Source: Tomocerus qinae (lineage: Eukaryota > Arthropoda > Collembola > Entomobryomorpha > Tomoceridae). Taken from it: a stretch of 64,000 bases of DNA. Location: positions 14,818,001 through 14,882,000 of the forward strand of contig CM034548.1 of the NCBI GenBank assembly GCA_020055645.1. Reading direction: 5' to 3'. Position 1 is the stretch's first letter; each line of letters starts with the position of its first letter. Positions 2,577 to 59,353 of this stretch are shown here, one piece after another. A program made the position numbers and the translations under genes. The notes beneath the pieces are model-generated. The model saw nothing but the letters and a program-made list of their open reading frames with translations, was not told the DNA's origin and ran no database searches.

Positions 2577-5500
2577 ATGGAAGATGCCCAAAAACAGTCA
2601 AAAGTGTCTTCGGGTTATAGCGAGTTGGCAAAACTCTGCAAAACCTCGGAGTATGCTGGTGCCATCAAAGCATGCAATCGAAGTAAGTTTATTTATGTAA
2701 AATAAATTAGACCTTGTTAATTATGAATACAAATGAATGGTTTTATTGATTCTCTCAATTTATTGTAACTAATGTTGAATGTACTGATAAATATTATTTT
2801 AGTTCTACACATGGACCCAAATGACGCTTTTGCATTTGGCGTAAAAATAACCTGTCATATCCATCTGGGTAATTTTGGTGAAGCCTTGGAATTTATGTCT
2901 AAGAATCCAAAATTTGATGCGCCGTGAGTTATTTCAAGTTTTATGTAGTCAATGGAATGATGGTTTACCCTATTTTAATTTAAAATAATGTTTGATTCTA
3001 CTATTTTATTTTAGTGAATTGATGTACCAGAAAGCATATTGTCTTTACCGTACAAACCAATTAAAAGCAGCTGAAGAAGCTTTGAGTAAAGTAAAAAAGT
3101 CGTCTCACAACAGAGAAACTTTATTGGCCCAAATCTATTATCGTATGGACAGATTTATGGAAGCTTATACCGCTTACAAAGATGTATATGCCAACTTTGA
3201 CGATGAAGATAAAGTTGAAAGTGATTGTAATATGATGGCCATATTGGCCTGTCTTAGAAGCAACAACTTGGTAAATGAATATTGTAAGAGTTGATACATG
3301 CTCAAAAAGACGTTTTACCAACAGAAATTATTTTACAGTTCTCGCAAGGATTAGCAAATGTCGACCTTGAGTACACTTATGAATTAAAATACAATAAGGC
3401 ATGTACACTGATTGCGCTCGGAAAATACGCAGAAGCACTGGGATATCTTGAATCCTCTGAGGAACAAGCTGTTGAAACTTTGGAAGAAGAAGGTTACTCT
3501 GTAGAGGAAATTAATAACGAAAAAGGGATTATTGTGTAAGTGATACTGTATTAAACTTTGATCCATTTTCAATTTTCTTTGTAATTGTAATATTTGATAT
3601 CATTTTGAAAGAATGGCGGTAAAACTAATTTTATGGTTTAAGTATTTCTTCCGATCCCCTAACATTTAAAAAGTAGGGAGGTTTGATGACAATAACGGTA
3701 AATATTTTTTCAACTAATGGGGCAATTGCTGATTTCTGTCTTTTCAGTCACCGGAAAAATTATATGTTTGCATTTCAACAATTAATCGTAAACACAAATA
3801 TCAAATGAGTTAAATTTTAATATGATACCTTTATGACATATTGCAGCGCACAGAGAGGATTTGTTTATCAAAAGTTGGGCAGAGAAAGTGATGCAATAAA
3901 AGTCTACAACCAAATCTTGAGTGAGAAACCAACTGATGAAACTCTTATCGCTGTAGTCTCCAACAACCTTCTCTGTATAACTAAGGATAAAAATGTTTTC
4001 CTGGGCAAGAAGAGAATTAAGGCAATGACTTTAGACACAGTCGATTGCAAACTAAATGACTCCCAGAGAGCCCGATTTGCCTTAAATCAGTGTTTATTCT
4101 TCTATCATACACAACAGGTAATAATATATTTGATAATAAATATTGAAATAATTATATGAGCAAATGTGTTGTATAATTTCAAACATATTTGTTTATGGTG
4201 CTTTAGACTGCTCGATGTAAGGAAACATGTGTAAGTCTTGTTGATCAATTTGCCAAATTGAAAATGGAAGCCACTAAAATAAAGTCTGGACTTGCTCTTA
4301 AAGCCGAAGGATTCGAAGCCGCCAAAAAGGTTATCGACGGATTTGTTGAGCAGGAACCAAGCACTAAAACGAAAATGTATTTAGGTTTAATACAACAACT
4401 GTTGAGAGAGGTAAGTATTGTTACTGATCCAAAATAGTATACTAAGCATATTAATAAATTGAATTTCGTAAGCGAATGACTTAATAAACATCTATTTTTA
4501 TTTTAGAATAACAGAAAGGATGCTATTGTGATGCTGAAAAGCTTAGGAAATGATTCTTTCAGTCTTGGGGTGGTTAGTGCTTTAGTTACATTGTATCAGA
4601 GTGCTGGAAAAACGAAAGAAGCCTGTGAGGTGCTGACCAAGGCTATAGAACACTACAAGAAGAAAGGGGTAGGTAGTTATTGAGTTAAAAATGGTTTTAA
4701 TAGTTCGTAATTGAAATTACCGACGAAAAATTAATAGAAACTCAGAATAAAAACCAACATTTTTTCCTATGTAGATAAAGTTGTCATAAAATTTAAAACC
4801 AAATAAGTGACAAAAAAGGAAAAAAATTGATAAAAACAAAAAATGTTATTCTGCTACAATTTCTTTATCGTATATTGTTCAATTAGAATGCTGAACGGAC
4901 TATTACTCTTCTATGGCGACAATCAGTGCAGTTAATGATGTCTGACGGAAATCACGAGGCTGCTGTAAATAGTTTGGAAAAACTTCGTCAATCTTCTCCA
5001 AACGACCCTTCCACTCTGGCTCAGCTGATTATTGCTTATTCCAAAGTAATTACGCTTCGGACATTGCATTTTCTTTAATTAAAAATATTATTCTCTTCGC
5101 ATCTTCTGTTTTCATCAATTTAAAAATTACAGTAAGTGTGCTAATCAGAAACAAAGTTTTGATGCATACTATTTCGTATTGTTTTTTCAATTCAGTACGA
5201 TGTTGAAAAGGCCCAAAAGTTAAGCCGACTGTTGCCACCTCTTAAGAAGCCGTCCGACTTAGATATTGAAGCATTAGAATCGCCGAACTGGCTTACTAGT
5301 ATGAAATTGCTTAAGAAAACTACAAAGGATTCCGCTCCTCCAACTCCTTTAGAAGTCTCAAAATCTCTCCCTGCATCTCCTGAAAAGAAGAAACGCAAGC
5401 GGAAGAAGAAGAGTAAACTTCCAGCAAATTATGACGCTGCAAAAAATCCAGATCCCGAACGCTGGCTTCCCCGTTACGAAAGATCCGGTTTTAAACCGAA

Positions 5501-5765
5501 AAAAGTCAGGAAAGGAAAAGTGGATGTGGGGAAGGGGACTCAAGGAGCATCAACTGAAGCCTCGGCCATTTAGTAAATCAAAAGATATTATTTATACTAT
5601 TTTATATTAGATATTGGATTATAAATGTAATAATTATTTTTGAATGTTAATAGTGACATGTCAGCAAAAGTTGGTGCAAAGACAACAGCAACTCCAGATG
5701 AGAGTCCTGGTCCATCTACAGCTTCTTGGAAAAAGGATGGAAAGAAGAAGCGCAAGAAGAGGTGA
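2577..5765 (+). CDS. SRP72: Signal recognition particle subunit SRP72
   Basis: Subunit of the signal recognition particle. It binds 7S RNA together with SRP68 and helps target ribosomes making secretory proteins to the ER. Ten exons join in frame: 2577-2682, 2803-2923, 3015-3270, 3339-3535, 3847-4117, 4207-4410, 4507-4668, 4887-5045, 5196-5572 and 5654-5765. The 654-aa product is close to the human length of about 671. The first roughly 490 residues are TPR-like helical repeats, including YCLYRTNQLKAAEEAL and NPDDPST-like turns. Residues about 556-565 are a lysine/arginine run, and PDPERWLP at 577-584 is the hallmark of the SRP72 RNA-binding domain, followed by the conserved GKGTQGA. A basic KKDGKKKRKKR tail ends the protein. 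All introns are GT-AG. The final 81-bp intron begins inside an apparent TAG codon, so the tail is missed if exon 9 is read through. Identification is by remembered family motifs. Confidence 0.95.
5573..5653 (+). other. Last intron of SRP72 (81 bp)
   Basis: Exon 9 ends GCCATTTA and the intron begins GTAAATC. Unspliced RNA therefore reads ATT-TAG as isoleucine-stop. The intron ends TTAATAG before TGACATGTC. Splicing makes codon TAT and adds 37 residues (618-654) ending in a lysine/arginine cluster, as in the basic C-termini of other SRP72 proteins. Retaining the intron would give a 617-aa form that still has the RNA-binding motif. Confidence 0.8.
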
Positions 5766-9356: not shown

Positions 9357-9575
9357 TCATGTGCTGTCCCGTCCGCCGCTCATTTTGAGAAAGTGTGAGA
9401 ACGTCTGTCGCAGATACTCCAATGTGTTAACGTAGTCTCTGAAGATCAACCAATCTCTCAAGTTCCTAGTCGTTTTCTCATCCAAATCCCTGTATGTCTC
9501 CTTCATTATTTCTCGGGTTACGTCTTCATGTTGGATATTCTTTTCAAGCATGGCTATTTGTAATTCGCAGAGCAC
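9357..9575 (-). CDS. Terminal exon 6 of the helical-protein gene
   Basis: The acceptor is TTAAATTTTACAG before GTGCTCTGC. This 219-base exon encodes residues 225-296 and ends in a stop. It contains the second cysteine after the hydrophobic segment (C227) and two strongly charged helices, one around RDWLIFRDYVNTLEYLRQTF. The C-terminus MSGGRDST is short and polar with no retention signal or second membrane segment. Confidence 0.88.
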   Translation of the reverse strand: MLCELQIAMLEKNIQHEDVTREIMKETYRDLDEKTTRNLRDWLIFRDYVNTLEYLRQTFSHFLKMSGGRDST

Positions 9576-12500
9576 CTGTAAAATTTAAATATGCATTGCA
9601 TGAATTAAACGAGTCAATTAATTAGCACTAATTACTGTAATTACTAATCATACATAATTCAATATGGAAACGTAAGTACATAAGTAATAAAAGCATCTCT
9701 CACAGCTTGTAATTGTTCCCTGCCATCTCTCTAGTACTACTCTTCAAATTATACTATCTCCCTGTCTATAATATAAGCTACTGAAATATGAAATCAAGAG
9801 CAAACTGGTTTTTTCTCATAAGTTTCTTCCTATTCGGTTGTTAACCTGTCTACATTTAATGGACACCTGAATCTTCTACTTTGTACAACTATATACCCTT
9901 CTAAGTGAAATGGGGAATTTTATCATCTCCATCTGGTTACAATCTGCACTTCTCACCCTTCATTGAATAGTAGTCATCCTTTTTATGCAACAGACCAAAC
10001 ATTTGTATACTAATTGTTATATGACAACTTATACTATTTTATCCTTGCAAATACATCTTATGTCTACACCAAATAATAATAACTAGTATATATTATGTGC
10101 ACACATAAACGTCAACATAACTGTCGATACCTAATCATCCGTATGATCTATGTATGAACAAAGTGCTAAAAAAGATAAAAAATGTAAAAATAGATCAAGT
10201 GTACTATGCATGTGAGGACAAACTGTATAATAGAGAGTTCTTCCTAAAATAAACCAACCAACGCAGAATAGTAATTGTAGTACTATTGCCCGATTGCACG
10301 CCACACGGCAAATGGGACTTTAATTCTTTCATTGCCCCGTATTCACGCGACAAATAAATGCATTTTTATACATATAGCAAGTTGAGCTATAAAAAGGCAA
10401 GTGGTTGGTGGTTGTTAATAGCGTCAATATTATTATTAGCCTAATAGTACCTGATCAACGTAATGCATGGATCACTTCACGTCACTTGTGTAACACATCT
10501 CATTTAATGTACGCAAATGCAAAAACTGACTAGTGCACAAGTTAATAATGAGGAATTAACATAATAGTAAAGTGAGCAGAGTTATTGTTGTGGATTTACG
10601 CAAGTTGTGCATTGACTTTTTTGGTTCCGTGATAGAAAAGTTTACTAAAAAATGATCGTGGAAAGATTTGGTCGTTTTGTTGGCTTGGGCTACTACAACA
10701 AGAACAGTTGATGTTACACGAAGCATCATACACACATACACGAGATGCGTAATTTTACAGCTCCTATGCAATGGACAATTGCCAGGATGGAGTAACCGCT
10801 GTACCAACCTAAGTATATTATGTACATAATGGGCCACGTAAAATGCAAATTTCTGTTTTAATTATACGTGACCATTGCCTGTTCACAAATCGAAGATCTA
10901 GTAACACTAACACCTGATCCGCAAGTGTTAAAAAACCAGATGCAATTGTACGACTGCCATACAAAATGATAAACTCAGTACAAGATCAGTTTCCCAAGTT
11001 ACCTACATAAATTAATTATAAATGTATTCTGTGCTGTAAATCTTAGGAAATTATTTCCTGTAGTGCCTACATCCATTAGTACATCATAATATTATGGAGT
11101 ACATGACAGTTGGACGGCTCAACGCTAAACTAGTCGACTAACTCAAACGGTCAGCAACAAGATGCAAAAACGAAACGAATACAAGTTCAAGTTCAGAAAA
11201 CTAAACGTGATAATCAAAACAATGCTAAATTGCTCCTCCAAACAGATCCCTACTCCAACTACTCATTATACAGAATAGTTTTATTAACCGAATAACCTTA
11301 TGGCACTTTCTAAACATTATGCATTTATATGCACTATGCAATTACATCCCTCAATTAACTCTATTATTACACATAAACCACATTTCTAAATTTAAACATC
11401 GCTCAATAGTCATGCAAAAGGATAAAGCTATTTTTACCATGTATTTACCTACACGTACCTACCTCTTATACTCCTCCACAATTATTATTTATGCACTACA
11501 TTCACTGACTAATATTGTATGAAATTCCGGCTCTGTCGTACCTACACACTAATTCACGTTTTCCTCAACTCCATATAAATACCTTAATAGTGTCCTTTCA
11601 TGTCTTTCTCAAACTAACTAAATTATATACTATTTTAATATCCTATGACCACTTGCTGCTACTGCGTCAAATTGACCAACTGTTAAATATATTCCAAAAA
11701 ATGCTATTTGACTACCGTAAGACTACGTATGTTTATAATCCATTGAGAACGGGAAATGTGTACCTAATTAATCGAATTTCCCTTTCCTATAAATGAGCTA
11801 TAACCTAGAGGAAATGATGAAGTCACATAAAAACAACTCTTCTCTGCCCTACATAACGATGACATTGGTTTGTAAACGATAATGTTTAGCACCTCAGGAT
11901 ATTTTTGGTTAGCATTTGCTTATTGATTTATAGAATGAACATCGATGACGTATACTGAGACAATACTCATTCATAAGGAATTTGGAACCGCAATCGTACG
12001 GTTGAGCTGATTGCTACAAGTGTAAGTGTGACATTGTGGGTTTGTCACCCGTTTGCCGGTGAGAGTGAATCACTATTTTTTGCTCAGCTAATTTATATTC
12101 TATTGTGTGGTGTAGTGTAATATTATGCATATGAGACATAGAGAGGGAAGTCCGCAGTGTCTAAATCTCAGATTGGTCTACATTCTTTAAACCTCAGACG
12201 ATAACACATTCCTAGTAAGGAAATACCTTCCTATCTGTCTACAGTGAGAGAGTGCATAGGTATTTGCTATGTGTATTTACTTCTATATAAGGATATTTTA
12301 TTATTAGACTTACATATTTTAACTGGAACTCAGCTTCATTAAAATTCTGATGAAAATTTCCCCCATAGACGGCTTGATCCAAAACGATTTGCTCTATAAA
12401 GTCCAGAAAAAATGACAATTAGATTGCTGCAATAGTAATTGACATTAGAGAATGATTCATCTGCAACGGCGAAGTCAGTGTCGCGGAAGATAATCAAAAT

Positions 12501-15500
12501 GTGTTTAGCTTACCTAACCCGACTGCAAATCTCTGAAGACCTTCATACATGGATCGAAGAGTTTCTTCCACCTGATAATCAAAAAAAAAGAAAACATTGT
12601 TGCATTAAGAAATATCATTGCAACAGATAATGAGTGAAAACAAATGGGGAATATGTTGTTGACTAAATATAGACTAAAAAGTAAAATGTCACCGGTAAAA
12701 GAGAATAAAACAAGGTTGATCATTAGGAAATCCTACGCTCAAATTGACGGAAATCCACTTGAGGAGATTTGGGAATTTATTAATTGAGAAGGAAAGGATA
12801 GGGAAACAGTGAGGACGTGATATTTCTGCCCGTATTGGTAATAATGTAGCGATTCGTGTAGAATAACTGGGATGGGAATAGACTTTGCTGTAGGTAAACA
12901 GTCCCAGTGTCGGTCAACTCACTTCTGGAGTGCTTTACTAACTTACTCTATTATTCCATTAAATTTTATGTGTCTTGTTATTTACTTTAAGTGTGACTTA
13001 CTTGTAGTTCGGAGAGCTTGGACGCATCTATTTCCTCTCCTAGGTATTTGCCAACTTTTTCTGAGACGCTAGTGAGCCAGTCGTAATGAAGATCCTTGTA
13101 TTTGTCGTGTTCTAACTTCGAGCCAAACGATTCTTCAAACTGCATAAAAAAATAAAGCATTGTCTATAAATGGCCTTTGACACAAAGAAAGAACCCTCAT
13201 CAACTATCTCTCTTTCAAGAGTAGCTACCTGCCTGGCTATAAGTCTCTACCCCAAATGGGCCCTTTCTTGGGACCTTAGAAGAGAGATGCAATAATACCC
13301 TCATCTAAATGTCTCTTATGACGTTTAGTTAGTACTACTGGTAAATAAGTATCTCCAATATCTTTCTTTTCTTCCTTAACAACTTAAGTCCAATAAACAT
13401 AAGTCTGTTCAATCCGTTTTAGACTCTCTCTCTATGTGCTTGAATTTGCTGTAGAATTCGAATTATTCAAACCAGCATGTGTTAAGAAATTGTTGATCTT
13501 AAAGCTCCCAGAATGAAAATTCTTGGTAATTATCAGAAAGTACAGTTGAGGTTGAAACCCCTTCTTGATATCAGCGATTCTTTTCACCAACCACAGAGCA
13601 CATGTCCCAAATTTAAGCTGCTTAAAAAACTCGACCACCCTTCCTTGTCAAAGTCGTAGTTAAATTCAATAAGTATGCAGCTACTCCACTCCAGAGTCAA
13701 TAAAGCATATAATCCTCAAGAAATATCTAAAAAGTACAACGATGACACGGCTCTCTGCACATGCTGAAACAAACAATTTGTATCCCACCCCCAACTGCTT
13801 CAGTACCAGTTCACGAAAGCTAATTCTCGATTTCCGACCAGAAATCTGGATAACAAAAGGTTTCAAGCTTGGACAAGTCGAAACTTGTAAACAATGTCCA
13901 TATATTAACTACTCGTAATTATTGAGCTATCGAAAGCTATATTATTTACTTATGTTTCCTCACCATTACATTCTTTACATAAAAATACAGAAACATTTAT
14001 GCCGACCTTTAGAAACGATAAGTAAGTAGATATACACGTAAAGCTCTAACAATATATAACTTTGATTACAATTATATACATAGTAGTACTTGTGTTAATA
14101 CTATAAGTATAAGTACTTAGTTATAAGCATAATATCTTTTTTTCTGTATTTTGTGGAAAATGAGATGTACTGGTGAGGATGAAGAAAAATGTGGAGTGAA
14201 TTGTACGTCCGGAAAGGTAGGCTGACAATGAGGGACAATACTGATGAGGTGTAGTAGTAGTAATGTATTTACTGTAGGGACTTTTGTTCACAAAGACAGA
14301 AGCCAAGTTGGAATATTGGATAAATGTATTTTGAATTGGGTTTGTATTAGGTAAGTACTAGAAAAGATGAAAATGTGGTGCGTTTAGAAGTAGAGGGTTG
14401 AACCTAGGCCGACTGACACGGAAAATGAGTGAGTGTGCAGTTAGCGAGTCAAAGGCAAAGTCAACGAGGATAACCAGATGAAGAAAATTGGTGGAGGAGG
14501 TGTGTGTGGAGCCTCATCTGATTATTTTCTCTATTACCCATTTACTATATGCATACTTTAAGTTCACTGGCAATTTTACTAGACCTATGTCCCTCTGCTA
14601 CTACTGCTAAGTAAGTATGTCGGAAGAGTCAGAAAATCTACAGAAAACCTAACATCCCATACTCTACCTACCTATAGGGACTAACTACAACTCGGGCATA
14701 GGTTTCTGCATGTATGGACCCATATACTAGATATAGGGGTAAGAGAAAAAAGATAATTTGAGAAGAAGAAGGAAAAGAGGATTGAAATAGTTAAATGATA
14801 TTTATGGAAAGATTGATAGATGTTAATTGGGAAAAGAGTAAATAGATTTTTGAGGACAAAGCGAAGAGGTTTGTAGCACAATGTGGTAAGGAAAACTGAC
14901 AGCAAACACAGCGGCTCTTGATACCAAATTACAGATAGAAAGCTGAAAAGATTTCTTTGGTGGGTATTCTCTCTGTAATCAGTGTCGGGTTTGACCAAAA
15001 TATTTCATGCTTCCCGAGGTGGCAATAGCAAAGGGCTTTCGGCACGCAGTACCGCTCAGGTACTTTTCCTTAGGTCACTGCAAGAGACCTCACACTCACT
15101 CTGGATAACAGTTCCCATAGAATACCACGACACAAGATTCTGTTATCCGTGGTCGTCTCCCCCATCTCATCTAGTATGAAAGTGTCTATTAGTCATCCGC
15201 CAATTGCATTCTTTCGAACACTAATTTCTTTCCTCCAATCATTTCCCTCTACTTCCGGTCACTCTGTACTGGATCCGACCAACCAGCCATAGCCAACAGA
15301 TCGAGCGAGCCGCCGTTCAGCCAACCAGACCAAAAGAGCAAGACAGCCGCCTGTCTTGTCTACCACTTTGCCAAATATTCTTTACTATATAATATGCAAC
15401 TTGATAAGTACTCATTATGTTTCCAATTCCCCTCAATCAATTTACCTGCAGCCCTTGATTGCGAAAAATCGCAAGGAAACCTCCTTTAGCTCAACACACA

Positions 15501-18500
15501 TATCATTATGCCTCTAGAGTAGTCTCTAGTGAATCACCAAGAATTTGGTCTGGGTTCTTGGGCTATCCTTGCCCTTTGTTGTTGCCATGCACAGGAGAGT
15601 CCCAGACCAATCCAGAGCAATTGTTTTATAATATTATAGAGAATAGTTGGCTACAGCATCTCCACATAATAATATCAGTGCACTAGATACGAGTTAATAA
15701 AACCCTTGCTCGCTGCATTTATTTCTTACTCTCATAACGCTATGTAATATAATGACCAACTTAACTCTTCTCTCACGAATTCAAATCTTTTCTGCAAAAT
15801 ATTATTACTCTTGGTATAATATTTACTTGTATTGTATGCACATAATATGCATTATTTATTTACCACCTGTAATATTGTGCCCCGAACTACATACCTACAT
15901 GCATTACCATTATCTATCTCACCTGCACTAATGTCTACTTATAAGTACAAACATTAATATCTACATATACATATTATTATATACCTAATTAATAGCTTTA
16001 CCTCCATCCACGCTCAATCATTAAACTGCTGGACATTGTATTCCATGTTTACGTCGGTGGTGGGACTGTCTATTACAGCCTCATTATGCAGACTATATGG
16101 TAAACCAACTGCTGATAACGCTCTGGACTTGTACTCCATAATCATCACAATAATATTGGGATATCTCGATACTCACTATATCTAGTCCAGCAGTGATACA
16201 AACCGCAGCTAAACAGAAATAAATATTGCACAGAAAATTGAATAGCCACAGATTTAGGTATTAGAGACATTGCGTGTCAATACTACCTTACTTACATAAC
16301 CTTCCCATTTCATCTGTTCACCCCAATAGAATAAAGTCTGTCTCGATTATAGCAGCTAACGTCATTGCACTACTATCAAAAATAACTTGTCTCCTCTCTA
16401 AATTAAACCATAGCTTTGCATTGTCCTCACTGATATTTATGGTATGCATATCTATGAATTCCACGGAATGACGTCTTATACGATGGCAGTCATAAACGTT
16501 TGCGGATGTTTGATTATTCTCATTAGATGATGAGATTTTGCTCCGACACGCTTCTTTCTACCTGTACAAAGAGTCACTACTATACTGGCTACTGCGGACG
16601 ATTACGAGCTACACACTATCGCCACACATGCATACCCAAATGCACAAAAAATCTATAAATAAATACTTCAAATACGTACATAATGTACGTTGTGCGGAAT
16701 GACTGAGTGAGTATTGACAGAACGGTTTGATAGTGTCTTTTGTCTTGTTAATTTGTACTCTTTACTGATGTAATAATATACCATACTCACTCACCTGGTT
16801 AGGTCTACATATCAACTGACCGTGGTATCATAATGCTATTTAAATGTCTAATGCAAGCTTCTACGAAACTGACGTTTGTAAAGTGAAAGTAAACAAACAT
16901 TTAGGCATCCTTGCATAGCTCTACTACTAGGTACAGAACCTCCGTCTGTACTGCGAAATACTTATGCATACCTATTAACACAAACAACTAACTACCTAGC
17001 TAACATAACTATCTATGCCTGTTATAAGATAAAGTCAGAAAAGGTACAGCGCACACAGGTGTCAATAGTCAAAGACGATTGTCTTTCATGTGCCTTCCAT
17101 ACAGAGAACTATGCTTGCCAATTTGTAATGGAGTGATTAGTAAGATAGAGAGCTTATTGTCAGCAAAGGTACCTCAGCCACTCTGCCTTGTCATACTCAT
17201 ACACAGCAGATTGAATAGAAAATAATTTGCGAGAGGAACTGAGTTGGACGATAGTGAATGAGTCAAAATGTGTCCTTTGAAAAATCCCAAGTGATGAAAG
17301 CATTTTAAAGATTACAAAGTAAGCGTGTAAGTAAGCAGAAACAAACTGTATTGTCCTAAAAATGATTGATCCATTGGAGAGTCACTACTTTATATTATGT
17401 TGTAGATAAATTAGTAGTATTATCATAATTCAGCTTTTGAAGGTGTACAGTACCCAAAGTAGTAAATACTACTACTAAAGGTATGCATGTATAGTTATCT
17501 TAGTACATTGAGTAAAGTACCCACAAGGCAAATGCTATGGCATCTCTACCTTTCTGTCCCGTCTAATCGAATCTAGCAAGGAAAGGACAGGAGCACTCTG
17601 TGTGAAGTAGAATGGTGTAGGTAGATTTGATTTTGTTATGCAGGTGTTTTGTGCACTAATGGAGCACCTACCAGCATAAAACAAACGACTTGGTAAAAAA
17701 GATATGTGATTAGCAACTAAAAGAACACAAAAGTGAGTGTCTGCTTTATAGTCTTGATTTTATGATGAGGGAGAGACGGGAAAAGAGACCATCAAGTAAG
17801 AATGTAGTGAGATGCCATAGGACAGACAACTGTATGTACATATTATTCGGATTGCATTACATACATCACAACGTTGTTGGACTGCAAACAACAGTGAGTG
17901 CCTGAAGTAAAAACAACTACCTGTTGATTTCTTTAGCCTTTGTAGAATCTTTTGTGTGGAGAGAGAATGAATGGCCTGTCTTGTGTGACTATAGACTCGA
18001 ATGCAATCTAAAAATGTGAAATGTGTATACATAGTCTCAAACTTTGAAAAGTCAGGAGTGGACTGGGAGCAAGTCGTAGCATTCGAGAGTGGACTCAAAA
18101 TATAATACGACTATTGAGCATCGCTGTTAACGACTGCATGGGAGCAATCCACTCCAATCCTATATTAATGGCCTTTGGTGTAATGTAGTACAAACTACTA
18201 TATAGTAGTAGTTAATAGTTAGTTCTACCTACAAAATCGCGTTTTATTATGCACACTCCATCATCAGATTCTAGTCGTTGAGACTTACAAGGAGGAGGCT
18301 CTTTTCTTTGGGGAGAGAGAGCACATACATACTTTACATGACTATAGACACATGTGTGAGTATGTGAGATGTTCTCAACACAAGTACTATCTCCTTCCCT
18401 ATTATTTGGCGAAGAAAAGAGTACTATCTCAACTACTACTATACGTAATGCAAACTTTTAGCCTTTTAAAGGTTACAGACAACATGAAAGATAACTTACA

Positions 18501-21500
18501 AAGTCTTCCATAAAGTCACGGGATTGGCGCTCAGCCTTTCGGACTTGTGTGACAATATTTCCGAAAATTTCAGCATCAGATTGAGCTTGAATTTCGTAGT
18601 TTGAAACAGTAGGGACAGTCGAGGGTATCCGACAAGGATTAATCCATTTCGAGGGACGACTAGCGGATCCTTCTTCGCGATAAGGAGAATGTCTTCGATG
18701 ACCACTTGAACCTGAACTAGCTCCGGAGTCACGGGATCGGAGAGGATTAGACATTGCTGTAGGTAGAGTGAGTATAATCGCCACCGAGACTAGGAGTAAG
18801 GTTCTCCGCCCTGAAAATCAAACAATTTTTAATTCTTTCCAGACAAATCTTTAATGGACGGCTGGCAATCTGTAAATGTATAAAAAGCAAGAAGGAATTT
18901 CGAAAGCAAGCAGAAATAAGTAATTAGCAGTAGAAACGAGGTAACCAGGAATGTACTACTATCGGAAATATGTATAGGAATGACAACGTTTACATTCCTC
19001 ATTTATTATTCAATAGCATGAGTTAACCTTAATTACATGCATTCGTAAATATAGATATGGACAAACGATATCACGGGCTTTGCTGTTGTTGCCATTTTTA
19101 TCTCAACGTTTGTGGAGTACGCGAGTCAAGTCAATAGATATTAAAGCTATTACAACAAATATCTGTTTGTGACTTATCTTCTGAGGAATGACGAGTATTT
19201 TTACAGTAATGCCATCATCAGAATGCAATGCTTTTTTCGTGATATCAGACAAAGTGAGACTACTGTCTGCTGCTGAATGATCATGAGTTCATATGTAAAT
19301 AAATTATATACCTATATATAAGTATGTTCGTATAAGGTTTTTGTTTTTTTAAAAAGTCTCATAAACTACCTAATCCTAAATGTAGGTCTCAGCAAGTGAT
19401 TATGTTTGTAATTTTTAGGGTAGGCAGGAACTAGTTGTTTTAGGTTCAGTCAAACTATAGTATCAAGTTAACCGCAACTATGTAATGCATAAGTACATGA
19501 AGTAAGCAGCGCACGGGTGAGTATTAGTGCTGAGAAGAGTGTGACTCATTTCTATTACTCCACTATTGATACTATTATGACAGCAGATACCTAAGTATAG
19601 GTAGGAAGGTACGTAAGCTCACTATTGTTATACTAATCTTTTTCTTGAAGAATTATGTATTTAACGTTATGCTTTCAAAATTGTTAAATCCTCAAAGTTC
19701 TGTCAATATAAACTTGCTACAATTGCATTTCTCATAACATAAGTAAACGAAAAAAAACATTAATTTAGAGTCGAATGAAGTGCATAGTATCTATTAGTGG
19801 AAGGACAAACGAAACCACAACGAAAAGTTAAGGATTAGCTAAAATAGATTCAGGTAAAACGAACAGGTTTAAAACATGTTATCGTTGGAAGGACGGTAAC
19901 GTACGTACGTGTGTCCAAGCACATACATACGAGTGTAAGTCAAAGAAAAGGGTTAATTATAGAAACAGAAGTGGGAGCAAGAGAGAAACAAATAAACGTA
20001 TAAACGTCAGCTAGTAGAGCCGAAACTAAAGTGGACGGGGGTAAATTGAGAATTAAAAATGTAACCGACAAAGTCAATTGACAGTATTTTAGAAAACCAT
20101 AAGATGAGATTACATTGTATGTAGATTTGCATAAGATTTAGTTTGTGCTTAGCAGAGTTGAAGTAGGTAGAGATGAGAATAGATGATTGAGACAAGTAGA
20201 TATAAAGCAAATTGAGATTGTCACACTTAAGGACTGATACTAACCAGAGTCGTGGACAGAATATGATTTATGAGATGTGAAGGGTGTTGAAGAATTAAAT
20301 TGACTGCTGGATTCACACCGGCATTTATCGTAGTCTTGTGATTGCACAGAGTGCGAACACATTTTGGGGGATATTGAGCGACAGCACGGACAAACATGAG
20401 AAGACATGGTGTGTACACTTTGGTCACTTGCAGGTGACTCTTGTGATGATCTCACAGAAGTGACAAGGGACAAATTGGATTTACGGGAGGAAACGGTTTT
20501 CTCAGATTGGTAACACATGGAATGATTCGGTGGGGGGAATTGGAAGATAATGAAAATCACAAATGGGGAGAAATCACAAAATGAGAGCACAGAGCTCGAA
20601 TGAGACAACTTGCTTCTTTTTTCTACTAAATCTCGTATGTACGTTGTTGAACTTGAAAATTGCAAGTGTGGTTTTAAGACGGACTAAGAAAATTGCGGAA
20701 TGATCCGGTGAGAAGACACTTTGAGTAACAACGGTGTATGAACTATGAATGAGGGATTTGTGTGTGCTACAAGTGCTATTGTAGTTTCCGTAGTTGTAGG
20801 AGTATGTGAACGTGACTTCATGTAATGAATGACTAATATCACCAAAGCATTGCACTGCTCGACTTCTAGAAGTAAACTAATCATGAGGCCGGTCGACAGA
20901 TTGCTTATATTTGTAAATGGACCCCAATTTAAATTAAGTTAGTGAATAGCTGTGGCCTATTGACACCTGGAAGATAAGGTACGCGCTCTGTGTTGTGAGA
21001 TATACTAGGGACTACTCTAGAACTACAGCGAGTACCTTTCTACTCTTCTACTGCGTCAATGCTTTCCCAATCTCAGTCAGTCAAAGCAAACTAAGTACGT
21101 TCAGACTGGCCACATCCTTCTACATAGGAAATAGTGGCTGCCCCGTTCAACAACGTTTGTTTGTATCGTCTTGTCCAATATGCAGTATAGGTAGCCAGAT
21201 AGCCACACAACATAGTCCCTCGTCTTCCACTACTATGCCATCCACACTATATCTTTTATCTACCGTATACATAAAGCAGATGTACACACAGATACATTGT
21301 AATAAATACGATACACACATTATTACACACTAAATATGTACCACACTTGCTTATTGTTAGTATTTGCCACTTCACTAGAACACCCAACTACTTCATCATC
21401 ATCATACCTAGTACTACTACTATTACTACTACTACTATGTGCATATAAGAGACCTGTGTAAATATATATATACTACTCACTCACTCACTCATACTCACTC

Positions 21501-22932
21501 ACTCAATCATCACGACTCTTAACTTCACTTGAATACACTTGCCTAACTTTTGCGTCTGCCGGACTAACGTCCACAACCCTTGTATATAGTGTACTATGTG
21601 TCATGTAACTCATTCTATTGTGTGTGTACATGCTCACGATTCGCGATATTAGACCTATAGCGAATTTTCAGTACAAGGAATCAAGGAATCGCCAATACAC
21701 ATCATAGCGAATTATTAGTATATTTCGTCTACTAGTACTAGTTTTACTACAAAGCTATGGATGATGATGCTTGGTTTGGTGCAACCCCATGTTACCATCA
21801 AATTCTTACTATAATGACATCACTCTTTGTGATTACTCTGACTTCATACTTCCATTCATTCATACTATTTCTCCGTAACTCATAAACCAATTGAACAGGT
21901 CATCTGTTACGTACACCCAAGGTATTTAATTCATCTAAGCCACCGAAATCCTCTACCTTGTCCATCAAATCTTGTACATTGAGATCATCTCATTTATTTG
22001 TCTCATTCACACTCCACAAACAAACACAACCACTTACTTACTACTTACTCAACAATCTCATCTACACTCGCTAATACACATGTTCACACTCTACGTCTAT
22101 TTGTTTTATCTCATCATCATCCTACATATCTAATCAGCCTCACCATCATTACATATGCTTTACGCGTTAGCACTCGATTAAGACTTCATTATACCACTCG
22201 ACCGTTTAACCATTAAGCATCATCTTCCTTCCTGTCTCAACCTAACCGATTTGTCAAGTGGGATGCCAGGGGAAATTGGACTTTGTTGCCTACGCACATT
22301 TTTCGCAATACATCCAAGATGAATGAATGACGCAACGACATGAGGAACTTCCAATTCTGTCACCCTAAGAGTATCCATACAGATCCTCAAATAATGTCCC
22401 ACTGCAAATTTTTCGTTGGAATTTACTATTTTGTCAACGATGACAAATAGAATCATATCCAGGCCAAAGAATTATTTATCTTATTGCGGTTAAGTGAGGT
22501 TAACCAGAGGATTTCCCCTCGGCAGTATAGTGTAGACAGTTAAAGCAGGAGAACGTGCAACCTGTGGCGGTTAAAAGAGGATCTGTATGTACGAGGCCCT
22601 TGTCTTAAGTTTCCCATGCACATAAACATAGCCTGAGTGGGGTTAGATGGTTTCTGTAAGCTACTAAATGCCGCTGGGATTACCAAGTTGAGCAAATCAA
22701 CAAAGATTCAGTTCCTTTCATATAATATTGACTTTATCAACTCGTTATCGTGATCTATCGTGTGGGTGAGTTGTATATCTACTTATGATGGACTGAGCTA
22801 TAGCCCTAGCCATCCTTCCGCACATCCTTCATCAGAAGCTCGCTCACCTGGCCCACGCCATTCCGTTTCCGCTAAAAGATTTCGTCCAGCAGCACGGAAT
22901 TCAGCTTCTTGGAACTGAGTGCCTCTGTTCAT
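9357..22932 (-). CDS. Unrecognised secreted or type II membrane helical protein, 296 aa, six exons
   Basis: Minus-strand exons are 22932-22848, 18810-18500, 13139-13002, 12571-12514, 12393-12314 and 9575-9357. Every junction is GT-AG, and the phases (1, 0, 0, 1, 0) fit, giving 891 bases. The ATG at 22932 is preceded nine bases upstream by an in-frame TAA, which fixes the start. Residues 30-31 are RR and 32-47 are a hydrophobic run (TLLLVSVAIILTLPTA), either a signal peptide with a long n-region or a type II anchor. Residues 49-83 are a Ser/Gly/Arg-rich linker with basic pairs (GHRRHS), then SKWINPC (82-88). From about 100 to 290 the chain is predicted by eye to be nearly all helix, including YEGLQRFAVGLEQIVLDQ near 187-204. 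After the hydrophobic run only C88 and C227 remain, so one disulfide is possible. There is no enzyme motif. The layout suggests a helical extracellular ligand (cytokine- or hormone-like), but that is inference from shape. The gene structure is much better supported than the role. Confidence 0.82.
9576..12313 (-). other. Intron 5 of the helical-protein gene
   Basis: A 2.7-kb AT-rich intron. Short open frames inside on both strands have no recognisable motif and no exon-like borders that fit the gene. I see nothing else specific. Confidence 0.7.
12314..12393 (-). CDS. Exon 5 of the helical-protein gene
   Basis: This 80-base exon completes codon GAG and encodes EQIVLDQAVYGGNFHQNFNE and on to QLKY. 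The acceptor is GGACTTTATAG and the donor is TAT|GTAAGT. Only 120 bases separate it from exon 4. Confidence 0.82.
12514..12571 (-). CDS. Exon 4 of the helical-protein gene
   Basis: This 58-base exon encodes VEETLRSMYEGLQRFAVGL and one base of the next codon. The acceptor is TTGATTATCAG and the donor is TTAG|GTAAGC. It is too short to stand out as an open frame. Support comes from phase continuity with exons 3 and 5 and the amphipathic helix it encodes. Confidence 0.82.
13002..13139 (-). CDS. Exon 3 of the helical-protein gene
   Basis: This 46-codon exon in phase 0 encodes FEESFGSKLEHDKYKDLHYD and on to KLSELQ. The acceptor is TTTTTATGCAG and the donor is CAA|GTAAGT. The peptide is charged, amphipathic and helix-like, matching its neighbours in style. 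Confidence 0.85.
13140..18499 (-). other. Intron 2 of the helical-protein gene
   Basis: A 5.4-kb intron, mostly AT-rich. A GC-richer part at about 15000-15620 contains a small hairpin (CAAGACAG 15339-15346 with CTGTCTTG 15351-15358) and a ten-base inverted repeat (TTGGTCTGGG with CCCAGACCAA, about 15548-15614). No supported exon is present. An enhancer, an alternative promoter or an intronic RNA are all possible. Confidence 0.6.
18500..18810 (-). CDS. Exon 2 of the helical-protein gene (hydrophobic segment and linker)
   Basis: The acceptor is TGATTTTCAG before GGCGGAGAACC, and the donor is GACTTT|GTAAGT. It encodes the hydrophobic segment, the Ser/Arg-rich linker, the KWINPC motif and the first long helix (about residues 99-132). 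It has no ATG before the hydrophobic segment, so an upstream coding exon is required. Confidence 0.85.
18811..22847 (-). other. Intron 1 of the helical-protein gene
   Basis: A 4-kb intron holding an alternative exon-like frame ending near 20247, described under findings. TACT/ACTC microsatellite-like stretches occur at about 21411-21436 and 21476-21504. Nothing else is supported. Confidence 0.55.
21411..21504. repeat. TAC/TCAC simple-repeat tract
   Basis: An imperfect TACTAC run at 21411-21436 is followed, after an AT-rich spacer, by repeated ACTC/TCAC units at 21476-21504. This is ordinary low-complexity sequence. Confidence 0.7.
22848..22932 (-). CDS. Exon 1 of the helical-protein gene (start codon)
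   Basis: It encodes MNRGTQFQEAEFRAAGRN and ends WRGP plus one base before the strong donor CCAG|GTGAGC. The phase-1 end joins the GG that opens exon 2 to make glycine 29. An upstream in-frame TAA nine bases before ATG and the good donor favour this over the rival exon near 20240. The exon is relatively GC-rich compared with its surroundings. Confidence 0.65.
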
Positions 22933-53200: not shown

Positions 53201-54662
53201 TATATTGCTAGTTAATATATAAATATTATAGGTACTACATAAAACATGATTTTTTTGGATTGCAGACGACCCCGATTTATAAACCGGGAAACCTAACACA
53301 ATGGGTTTCTATTAAACGTTGGGTCTTCCGCTCCCTACTTGAACAACAACTTTTGTTGCGTTGCGACAGTCCTGATGTTCAGGCAACATGACATTCATCA
53401 TTGCCCACACCTTCTGCGATTCTTTTGACATCTCTTATTCCGTTCTATTAGGTACTTCATAGGTCCCATTCAGTCCTTATTGTATCGCATATAATGTTTA
53501 CTCTAAACATAAATGCTACACACTACGACTACACACAGACCGCTGACTGATTATTGAATGAATATAGTTCAACTCACGGTCCTACCTTTTGTGTATATGT
53601 ATAGCTTTGTAAATTACAGAGAATGAGTATTTACCGTGCCACTTATACATTTTCTTCTATTATGTTGACTTGTCCATTAAAATGCTCCAAAACATTGATT
53701 TGGTGCTTTTAAGGTTCTTATGGGGAATTCATACCACCTAAGTAAACCGTTTTATACGTAACATTGTACAGAAGGTACCTAACCACTGTATAAGTAATTA
53801 AGGTACGAATCGTGACTTCTTATGTACGTTGTATTTATGCCTACCTTTGCAATTATTTTTGCCGATTCGCTTCGAAAATATTAAATAAATAGTAAAAATC
53901 ATAGTTATTAGCTATTATGTATCAATTATATTCTAAAACATAATTGTTACGTGCTTAGACTGACAGTTGCTAAACCATAATATATGTTTTTTCTTGTTTG
54001 CAGTTCTCGCCGATGCTTATTTTCCGTCTCACAGCATAGCGAAGGCGAATGGTGCGACTTACGTTCGTGCTGACGGTCATTCCATTGCGGCTTTACTTGA
54101 CGCTATTCTTCAGCTCATCGAATTGGACACTTATGTCTATTCCCCTGTAAGTTAATTATTTCATTTGAGTAATACCACACATCCTCAATGTGATACATTT
54201 TCAAATATTTCAAGAGAAACATGTGTTGGCTAATGTTCTTGCTCTTATTCCAACCTCACCTCTGATTTCTTTTTATTTATTCTATAGGTGACTTTAATGG
54301 ACGTCGAAGATGTTGATCGATCTAAGGGAGTGAAAACACCTTTGCCGTTGTGGAACGATTATGAAAAGATTTTAACTAAACGTTCTAACCGTAGTGTCCC
54401 AATGTCATACTTGAAGCGCCAAGCTTTTTACGACAGAGCTTCTAAGGCAGCTCTTGTGATTGCTACCAGGTACCAATTTCAGAAAAACTCCTTACTACCT
54501 ATCTAAGCAATAATTGTAATTTAAAAATGATCCTACTATGCCACAACTTGATTTTAATAAAATATATTATTTTTCAATAGTGAAACTGGGAAGTACGGCA
54601 ACATCATGCTGACTACTGGATTAGTTGTTCCACCGGATAGTGACAACAATACTCCAGAATGA
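32174..54662 (+). CDS. FUOM: Fucose mutarotase (RbsD/FucU family)
   Basis: Interconverts the alpha and beta anomers of L-fucose, helping free fucose re-enter the salvage route to GDP-fucose in the cytosol. Exons are 32174-32255, 54004-54146, 54288-54469 and 54581-54662. They join in phases 1, 0 and 2 to a 162-aa protein, close to the roughly 150-aa family length. Diagnostic features are LKGIPTIISPDLLKALAMVG at the N-terminus, GHGDDIVLAD (22-31) with the family's catalytic His (H23) and nearby Asp (D31), YVRADG and LDTYVYSP in the middle, and ETGKYGN (137-143), which matches the conserved sugar-binding Tyr-Gly-Asn loop. There is no signal peptide. Intron 1 is about 21.7 kb while introns 2 and 3 are 141 and 111 bp. 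Enzyme identity rests on recalled family motifs. Confidence 0.94.
36609..36910. mobile_element. Imperfect foldback or MITE-like element
   Basis: TTTACCACTCAT...ACCACCC (36609-36634) is matched in inverted orientation by GGGTGG...ATGGGTGGTAAA (36884-36910). Inner pairs such as TACATG (36691-36696) with CATGTA (36853-36858) keep roughly the same centre. At the centre sit two perfect palindromes: 14-bp arms at 36757-36785 and 8-bp arms at 36786-36802. The motif ATGTTCGAGTG recurs in the right half (about 36861, 36912, 36948). A non-autonomous foldback transposon is the simplest reading. I found no target-site duplication by eye and no coding capacity. Confidence 0.4.
36757..36802. repeat. Two adjacent perfect palindromes
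   Basis: ATTATTCGTAATGA, one G, then its exact complement (36757-36785) is followed directly by AGTCATTA-C-TAATGACT (36786-36802). Both are seen directly. They could extrude as cruciforms, or form a paired binding site, within the foldback element. Confidence 0.75.
54004..54146 (+). CDS. FUOM: FUOM exon 2
   Basis: It encodes residues 28-75, beginning VLADAYFPSHSIAKANGA, with the conserved YVRADG and ending LDTYVYSP. The acceptor is TTGTTTGCAG and the donor is CCCCT|GTAAGT. Confidence 0.93.
54288..54469 (+). CDS. FUOM: FUOM exon 3
   Basis: It encodes residues 76-135 and two bases of codon 136. It begins VTLMDVEDVDRSKGVKTPLP and contains the FYDRASKAALVIAT helix typical of the family. The acceptor is TTATTCTATAG and the donor is ACCAG|GTACCA. 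Confidence 0.93.
54581..54662 (+). CDS. FUOM: FUOM exon 4
   Basis: It encodes the ETGKYGN sugar-binding loop and a short polar tail ending DNNTPE, then TGA. The acceptor is TTTTTCAATAG. Confidence 0.93.
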
Positions 54663-57800: not shown

Positions 57801-57989
57801 ACATGATCGAATTGAACAGTTACGCATTCCATTGTAACATTGTAAGGTAAGTGCGAAAAGTGAATCCGGTCTCGTGTCCCATTATTGCCTAACACCACCG
57901 CCACAGCAAAATTCGATTTTTGTTAACACGCGTTACAGTAACACTTCTTATCATTTTTGATCTTGTCTGTTTATTGGATCGTCGTCACA
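54894..57989. other. Intergenic DNA between FUOM and the 160-aa gene
   Basis: About 3 kb without a supported exon. The last kilobase is less AT-rich in places and should hold the promoter of the gene at 57990. I see no clear TATA box there. A long imperfect hairpin is listed separately. Confidence 0.5.
57346..57495. repeat. Imperfect hairpin, roughly 70-nt arms and 11-nt loop
   Basis: TGACCTAACTTATTAAAAAATAAAC (ending 57416) pairs with GTTTATTTTTTATTAAGCTAGGTCA (from 57428) with two mismatches. Pairing continues outward less perfectly through TTTTTGACTATTTTC with its partner, TTGCC with GGCAA, and ATATCCTAA with TTAGGATAA. The loop is only about 11 bases. A MITE insertion or an RNA hairpin precursor would both look like this. 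Confidence 0.5.
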
Positions 57990-59353
57990 ATGGCTGGTAA
58001 AGGAGGATCCGGAAATAAGTATCAATGGGTTGAAAAGCAAATAGATAGAAATTTGAAGGAAGTTTCTAAGACAGAAAACATTTCTAATAAGGATATGAAC
58101 ATCATGGAACTGTGGAATAAGACAGTACTAGAACTAAAGCAGGAAAAGTTGACGTAAGTACTGAATGTAATTCGGGTACAATGAGCTGATATTATTCTCG
58201 AATAATCAGCCAATTCAATTTACTTTTTGAGTTTAAACATTTAATAGTCCGTAACCTCTAATATTCCAAATCATTAAAACTTTATCCGCCATGCTGGATG
58301 ACTTTTGTTGATACTAAATACTAATACAAGTAAATTATGAAAAAAGTAAGCGTAGCTAACTTGCAACAATTGCCACAGATGACAGAAATGATTTAATCAC
58401 GGATGAAGTTATCATATATTTCAACTTCAACCACCTTGTTGTTGGGTGTCATTGATATTCAAGTCATAGCTTTTTGTTTTTATAAGTTTTTTTGAAATTG
58501 AGTGGTTTTTTCTGCTGTCCGTGAAATTCATTAATGATTGAACAGACATGAACCCACCTGATTAATTCCAATAATTTTTATTGTGTCATAGTAGTCATAT
58601 TATACCGAAATTTCTTCTTCCTAGCTGAATATAATTTTTTTTTCAATAATTTCTTAATTAATATAAAGCAATTTTTATATTGCTATTATTCCATTTAGTT
58701 GTTAGTTGATAAGAACAGAAATTATTATGAATGACTATTCTTTTCATTGCAGTGAGTATTGTATATGTAGTTGCATTTTATTTTAAACATAAACAATAAA
58801 CATTAATAGTAATTACAAAGTTTACTACGAGACATTTAGACATAGTATACCCAATTCCAATCTACTTTGTCTCACTTTGACATTTATTAAGCAGTTAGTG
58901 TTAGGTTAATACATTATTAAATAAGTTTCAATAATATCTCCATTCAAGTCATTCAATTATATATTGTGAAGGGATTCTATTTAGCTCTAGCATTAGTGTG
59001 ATTATAGTATTAATCCAAAATTTCTTTTTCATAGAGATGCCTCTGTCCGCTTGGATTGTGTATCTATTTGTTCCACCTTTTTGGATCGTTACACTTCTTT
59101 GATTTTGAAGAAAGAGTTAGAAGCCGAATTGCTTCTGCATTTGAAAATGCTTTTAAACACGAACTGCCTTTCTCCAAAAGATTATACATATATGGTGACG
59201 TCGTTTAAAGATGGATTACGATTCCATCAAACGCCAGAGCTGTCTCATCATTCGCCGAAGTCAGAGCCATCGCCAATTAACAATTCTCAAAAATTGTTAC
59301 CTGGAGAGTCATCTCCAGCGTTAGCGCAAGGGGTTGACGAAGAATCTTCATGA
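57990..59353 (+). CDS. Unrecognised 160-aa helical protein, two exons
   Basis: Exons 57990-58153 and 59035-59353 join in phase 2 (donor TTGAC|GTAAGT, acceptor TTTTTCATAG) to 160 codons plus stop. The start context TCACAATGG is good. Residues 9-30 are charged (KYQWVEKQIDRNLKEV), and 33-118 look like several amphipathic helices (MELWNKTVLELKQEKL, FLDRYTSLILKKELEAELLL, LSPKDYTYMVTSFKDGLRF). Residues 120-160 form a Ser/Pro/Glu-rich, probably disordered tail with SP pairs. There is no signal peptide, membrane segment, zinc site or enzyme motif. It reads like a small cytosolic or nuclear subunit of a complex, but I cannot name the family. Confidence 0.88.
58154..59034 (+). other. Intron of the 160-aa protein gene
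   Basis: An 881-base AT-rich intron with standard GT-AG ends. I see nothing in it. Confidence 0.85.

Follow-up and report, generated by a model that had tools for sequence, protein, structure and literature searches.

A six-exon gene of Tomocerus qinae encoding a likely secreted, predicted helical protein that might be a cytokine-type ligand

Introduction

One of the closest described systems is that of the Unpaired (Upd) proteins of the Drosophila JAK/STAT pathway, which are described in an excerpt of the literature as being without sequence similarity to cytokines and as predicted to be highly helical (PMC5645147). Excerpts of further reports state that Varroa and other mites possess the parts of the JAK/STAT pathway although no Upd was identified in them, the honey bee and Coccidae being named as well (PMC12027997), that no Upd was found in the honey bee (PMC6115922), and that neither Upd nor Dome was found in the small brown planthopper (PMC10069781). 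The lack of Upd need not be explained by a helical ligand still to be found, since in shrimp a C-type lectin was reported, again in an excerpt, as an activator of Domeless (PMC5645147). A second receptor to be considered is the class I receptor CRLF3. According to excerpts, it is an orphan whose ligand is unknown and was inferred by the authors to be present in locust haemolymph (PMC8063046), and it is rare among insects, occurring in the transcriptomes of 5 of 128 species, and absent from Drosophila (PMC6797617). Because of this rarity and absence, a Domeless-type receptor is a broader candidate than CRLF3.

IL-6 genes have a phase 1 first intron followed by phase 0 introns. In interferon-lambda genes, the first coding exon is described as short and as stopping one base into a codon, the introns after it being of phase 0 (PMC2654155). 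The same source states that helical cytokine families share 5-15% identity, which is below BLAST detection, and therefore the silence of sequence searches is no argument against a helical cytokine (PMC2654155). Here, we describe a gene of Tomocerus qinae for a probably secreted, predicted alpha-helical protein, which we tentatively read as a cytokine-type extracellular ligand.

Results

Gene model and exon structure

All coordinates refer to the window, i.e. the whole stretch of DNA analyzed, which has a length of 64 kb. The model rebuilt on the minus strand comprises six exons with 891 nt including the stop codon and encodes a product of 296 aa (Table 1). The original prediction of six minus-strand exons with matching GT-AG borders and phases was reproduced exactly: all five introns are of the GT-AG type, with phases 1, 0, 0, 1, and 0 at codons 28, 132, 178, 197, and 224, respectively. 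The start ATG is located at position 22932 of the minus strand, and the in-frame stop that had been noted nine bases before it was confirmed as a TAA at positions -9 to -7. Exon 2 contains 103 full codons and zero stops, and the 72 codons of exon 6 are likewise open. No second copy of the gene was present within the 64-kb window, where the next-best tblastn match had an E-value of 3.0, and exon 6 together with 125 further bases gave a single match at the DNA level in the assembly of 334 Mb and 115 contigs.

Table 1. Positions of the six exons and of neighbouring features in the window.
Feature	Position	Strand	Description
Exon 1	22848..22932	-	85 nt; start codon, residues 1-28 and the first base of the next codon; followed by a phase 1 intron, donor CAG|GTGAGC
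Exon 2	18500..18810	-	311 nt; RR and hydrophobic segment, Ser/Gly/Arg linker, KWINPC, putative helix A
Exon 3	13002..13139	-	138 nt; residues 133-178, AB-loop-like region; phase 0 on both sides
Exon 4	12514..12571	-	58 nt; residues 179-197 plus one base, helix-B-like; donor TAG|GTAAGC; preceding intron phase 0, following intron phase 1
Exon 5	12314..12393	-	80 nt; putative end of helix B, BC loop, start of helix C
Exon 6	9357..9575	-	219 nt; residues 225-296, second Cys (C227), putative helices C and D, stop codon
SRP72 (signal recognition particle subunit), several exons	2989-5600	+	PF08492, E 9.7e-18; one exon with matches to six SRP72 sequences of the PDB
Fucose mutarotase-like (RbsD/FucU), two exons	53964-54503	+	PF05025, E 1e-06 and 4.1e-06
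Two coding-like ORFs	57942-58154 and 58997-59350	+	no Pfam family over cutoff

Coding signal of the spliced sequence

Splice sites were scored with textbook matrices, and donors were ranked among the 3827 GT sites of the minus strand. The donors of introns 1-5 lie at quantiles 0.999 (0.9992 for exon 1), 0.896, 0.992, 0.995, and 0.959, the corresponding acceptors at 0.940, 0.976, 0.947, 0.884, and 0.906, that of exon 5 being the weakest (0.884). With 12.5 bits, the exon 1 donor stands far above the next one (7.8 bits) among the listed phase-1 ATG exons with a donor of >4 bits between positions 18830 and 24500. An alternative first exon at 20243-20683 on the minus strand, whose phase fits, was rejected, as its donor (CTG|GTTAGT) reached 6.7 vs. 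12.5 bits and its codon score of -0.315 per codon equals the background mean. With its phase-compatible donor and no coding signal, this open frame of 147 codons could easily mislead a gene predictor.

The training set of the codon model consisted of 487 SRP72 codons, i.e. of a single hydrophilic protein, and for this reason the model disfavours the hydrophobic segment of the product. As background served 153 ORFs of at least 60 aa, ORFs touching four listed intervals being left out. The spliced sequence scored +0.005 bits per codon compared to a background mean of -0.31 (sd 0.13), 2 of the 153 ORFs scoring higher than the spliced sequence, and its reading frame totalled +1.4 bits vs. -41 and -55 bits in the two other frames. 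When the exons were scored singly, the frame of the model was preferred in exons 1 (+7.0, 28 codons), 3 (+6.2), and 4 (+5.5) and barely in exon 5, whereas it scored -6.4 in exon 2 vs. -5.0 for another open frame and -9.6 in exon 6 vs. +2.1 for a frame containing stops. The spliced frame carries a coding signal, its 3-base periodicity being matched or exceeded by 16 of 4000 noncoding splices with the same piece lengths. For the single exons 1-6, the periodicity was reached by 807, 51, 12, 663, 45, and 197 of 2000 controls, respectively, and is thus not informative for exons 1 and 4 taken singly. The GC content was above that of both flanks in five of the six exons, the exception being exon 5.

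A crude gene-chain search was run with intron penalties of 16 and 20 and with 300 first-order Markov resamples as null. The best chain at the locus scored 60.2 vs. a resample maximum of 22.3 (penalty 16) and 37.1 vs. 14.9 (penalty 20), and the best chains of the other five region-strands ranged from 7.0 to 15.6 and from 3.0 to 11.6, respectively. Since the chain score exceeds those of all 300 resamples and of the five other region-strands, the locus contains a gene. The six-exon chain of the model itself scored 29.5 at penalty 16, above 300 of 300 resamples, and 9.5 at penalty 20, which is under the maximum of 14.9. Compared with this model, the best chain retained exons 1, 3, 4, and most of exon 2, trimmed the hydrophobic start of the latter, contained one or two extra exons, and replaced exons 5-6 by a different 3' end. 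Exons 1, 3, and 4 are thus best backed by the chain search; less certain are exons 5-6 and, in exon 2, the hydrophobic start. A run with a low intron penalty (105.9 compared to a mean of 55.0 and a maximum of 86.0 for 60 resamples) was dropped, as it chained 16 mini-exons.

Properties of the product

The product had been claimed to consist of a hydrophobic N-terminal segment, a Ser/Gly/Arg linker with dibasic sites, and a mostly helical domain, with only two Cys after the hydrophobic segment. The first and the last of these features were borne out. There is a single strong hydrophobic segment at about residues 32-50, with a 19-residue mean hydropathy of 1.74 from residue 32, and the highest 19-residue value beyond residue 50 is 0.73. 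The segment is preceded by 29-31 residues and ends in a candidate A-M-S|N cleavage site. The product contains exactly two Cys, C88 and C227. Residues 49-296 have a mass of 28.9 kDa and are acidic (pI about 5.4).

The linker comprises 34 Ser/Gly/Arg-rich residues and is followed by KWINPC and then by the helical domain. It was modelled with low confidence, in keeping with a linker, but the plural in "dibasic sites" does not hold for it, as only one pair, R67-R68, is located there; the further pairs, R30-R31 and R119-K120, lie elsewhere. An RX[KR]R furin motif and an N-glycosylation sequon are absent from the 296-aa product. Dibasic processing is weakly supported: in a peptide hormone precursor, short peptides would be bounded by dibasic or furin sites, and of these the linker has the one RR.

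The AlphaFold2 folds cover exons 2 and 6, each taken alone. For exon 2, a helix was predicted at protein residues 107-130 with a pLDDT of about 96, the linker having values of about 50-60 and the whole fold a mean pLDDT of 64.8 and a pTM of 0.29. Exon 6 was predicted as one helix at residues 226-290 (mean pLDDT 92.6, pTM 0.55). These two helices agree with the claimed helical domain, the remaining part of which is an extrapolation. To fit into a bundle, the predicted helix of 65 residues would need a break. A Chou-Fasman calculation on residues 85-296 yielded 50% helix and 25% strand; it was given no weight, strand being called inside the confident exon 6 helix of AlphaFold2.

Searches for families and homologs

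None of 24736 Pfam and 18950 NCBIfam models matched the product above its cutoff, and among 177635 PDB sequences the best match was a phosphatase with an E-value of 0.12, no cytokine being found at E up to 10. The assignment to an unrecognised family therefore stood. The top Pfam model was IL11, with an E-value of 0.043 for the whole protein and of 0.011 for the domain; the match covers residues 170-241 and scored 15.8 bits vs. a cutoff of 25.8. When the domain was reversed as a control, IL11 was absent and HAT1_C alone appeared (E 0.21). As an unrelated Pfam family matched one of the SRP72 exons at an E-value of 0.0082, the IL11 score does not rise above noise and serves as a hint only.

Relatives of exon 6 were sought by pattern, which returned four stretches in viral contigs and 31 in contigs of prokaryotic genomes, none of them confirmed. 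In open-licence literature, the peptide words of the product had no occurrence, and no description of it was found in the titles and abstract openings. Some insect proteins that lack annotation may likewise have W-x-N-P-C at their start and a C-terminal helix of this kind; this resemblance was given no weight.

Comparison with known ligand families

Helicity and a likely signal are common to the product and Upd. The Pfam model of Upd, PF15972 (273 positions), was silent for the product at E up to 10, where the HMMER filters drop weak matches. It also had 0 matches at E up to 10 across the T. qinae genome, with a control that was uninformative, as 0 of 14 control genomes were matched.

The class I long-chain cytokines of the IL-6/IL-11 kind resemble the product in domain length, in several stretches prone to form helices, with a long crossover from A to B, and in having the signal, a putative one in the product, and helix A within one exon, and IL11 was the top sub-threshold Pfam model. 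On the other hand, the 15.8 bits of this model lie at noise level below the gathering cutoff of 25.8, which many true cytokines would fail too, the product has a phase 1 intron inside the domain, and its bundle is a putative one.

Class II helical cytokines of the interferon-lambda/IL-10 kind share with the product a phase 1 intron directly after the first coding exon and mostly phase 0 introns thereafter, so that four of the five introns fit. They differ from it by the phase 1 intron of the product at codon 197, by the lack of a sequence match, and by the product having only two Cys, a contrast based on the Cys patterns of class II cytokines.

Discussion

Proposed role of the product and alternatives

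The likeliest single reading of this gene, itself somewhat short of an even chance, is that of a cytokine-type ligand. The N-terminal hydrophobic segment would direct the protein into the secretory pathway and might be cut off near S49/N50. The flexible Ser/Gly/Arg-rich linker would then be followed by a domain of ~210 residues, which may pack as a long-chain four-helix bundle with helix A at about 107-137, helix B at about 178-206, helix C at about 217-240, and helix D at about 258-290. Helicity was computed on single exons for residues 107-130 and 226-290; the other helices and the packing we infer. As the product has only two Cys, a single disulphide, C88-C227, may tie the domain. The ligand would bind to a Domeless-type class I cytokine receptor and thereby switch on JAK/STAT. 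The STAT endpoint of this route exists, because STAT_bind matches pass the cutoff in the T. qinae genome.

Taken as a whole, the coding signal, the hydrophobic segment, the two Cys, the helices, the intron phases, and the STAT in the genome point, tentatively, to a ligand. Against it speak the lack of a family above cutoff, with IL11 at noise level, the one phase 1 intron where the pattern expects phase 0, and the codon model, by which exons 2 and 6 score better in another frame. Furthermore, exon 6 alone is predicted as one helix of 65 residues, a length that a compact bundle could accommodate only if the helix breaks, and the long region ahead of the hydrophobic segment could point to a membrane anchor.

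Among the alternatives, a secreted helical protein without signal function, i.e. a secretory product with a carrier, binding or structural role, survives best and is in our view unlikely. It would be helical and acidic with few Cys and a linker, and none of these traits is specific for ligands; however, no Pfam family of this sort matched the product, and its helix layout and intron phases appear to be closer to those of cytokines. Less probable still is a type II membrane protein, whose N-terminus with R30-R31 would form a signal anchor and whose helical domain would remain either at the cell surface or within the lumen of the Golgi. The N-terminus is indeed long and charged, with the RR immediately before the hydrophobic segment, but the core of the latter, LLLVSVAIILTL, is short with its roughly 12 residues, and the P-T-A-M-S at its end would, judging from the sequence, fit a signal peptidase site. 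Least probable of the three is an intracellular protein resulting from a partly wrong model, with an internal ATG start (M48) or different first or last exons, for which the trimmed exon 2 start, the different end favoured over exons 5-6, and the better score of other frames in exons 2 and 6 could be taken, but no other first exon comes near the donor of exon 1, whose codons are also coding-like, the competing ORF is at background, the 487 hydrophilic-protein codons bias the codon model against a hydrophobic segment, and exon 6 is confidently helical in AlphaFold2.

JAK/STAT context

An intron-rich gene with a likely secreted helical product outside Pfam in a STAT-bearing genome is a concrete candidate for a ligand that can be tested in cells. 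If true, the ligand reading bears on two gaps, the JAK/STAT pathway of animals without Upd and the orphan receptor CRLF3. That the gene represents an unnamed family of invertebrate helical cytokines, which provides the missing ligand of Domeless-type receptors in Upd-less animals or of CRLF3, is a long shot.

In the T. qinae genome, eight STAT_bind matches passed the cutoff; they are spread over about seven places, all on contig C1, and one of them contained an internal stop. This count on one contig exceeds that of Drosophila, which has a single STAT.

Neighbouring features in the window

Besides the gene described here, the window harbours the SRP72 gene used for training of the codon model and a fucose mutarotase-like gene (Table 1). 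Rfam matches and tRNAs, the latter searched for using ARAGORN with the bacterial code, were not found in the 64 kb. At the start of contig C3 of the assembly, TTAGG-type telomere runs of at least 15 bases were absent, and no conclusion is drawn from this. The two coding-like ORFs near the end of the table could be exons belonging to a single unnamed gene, and the first of them, at 57942-58154, had the top codon score among the 153 background ORFs.
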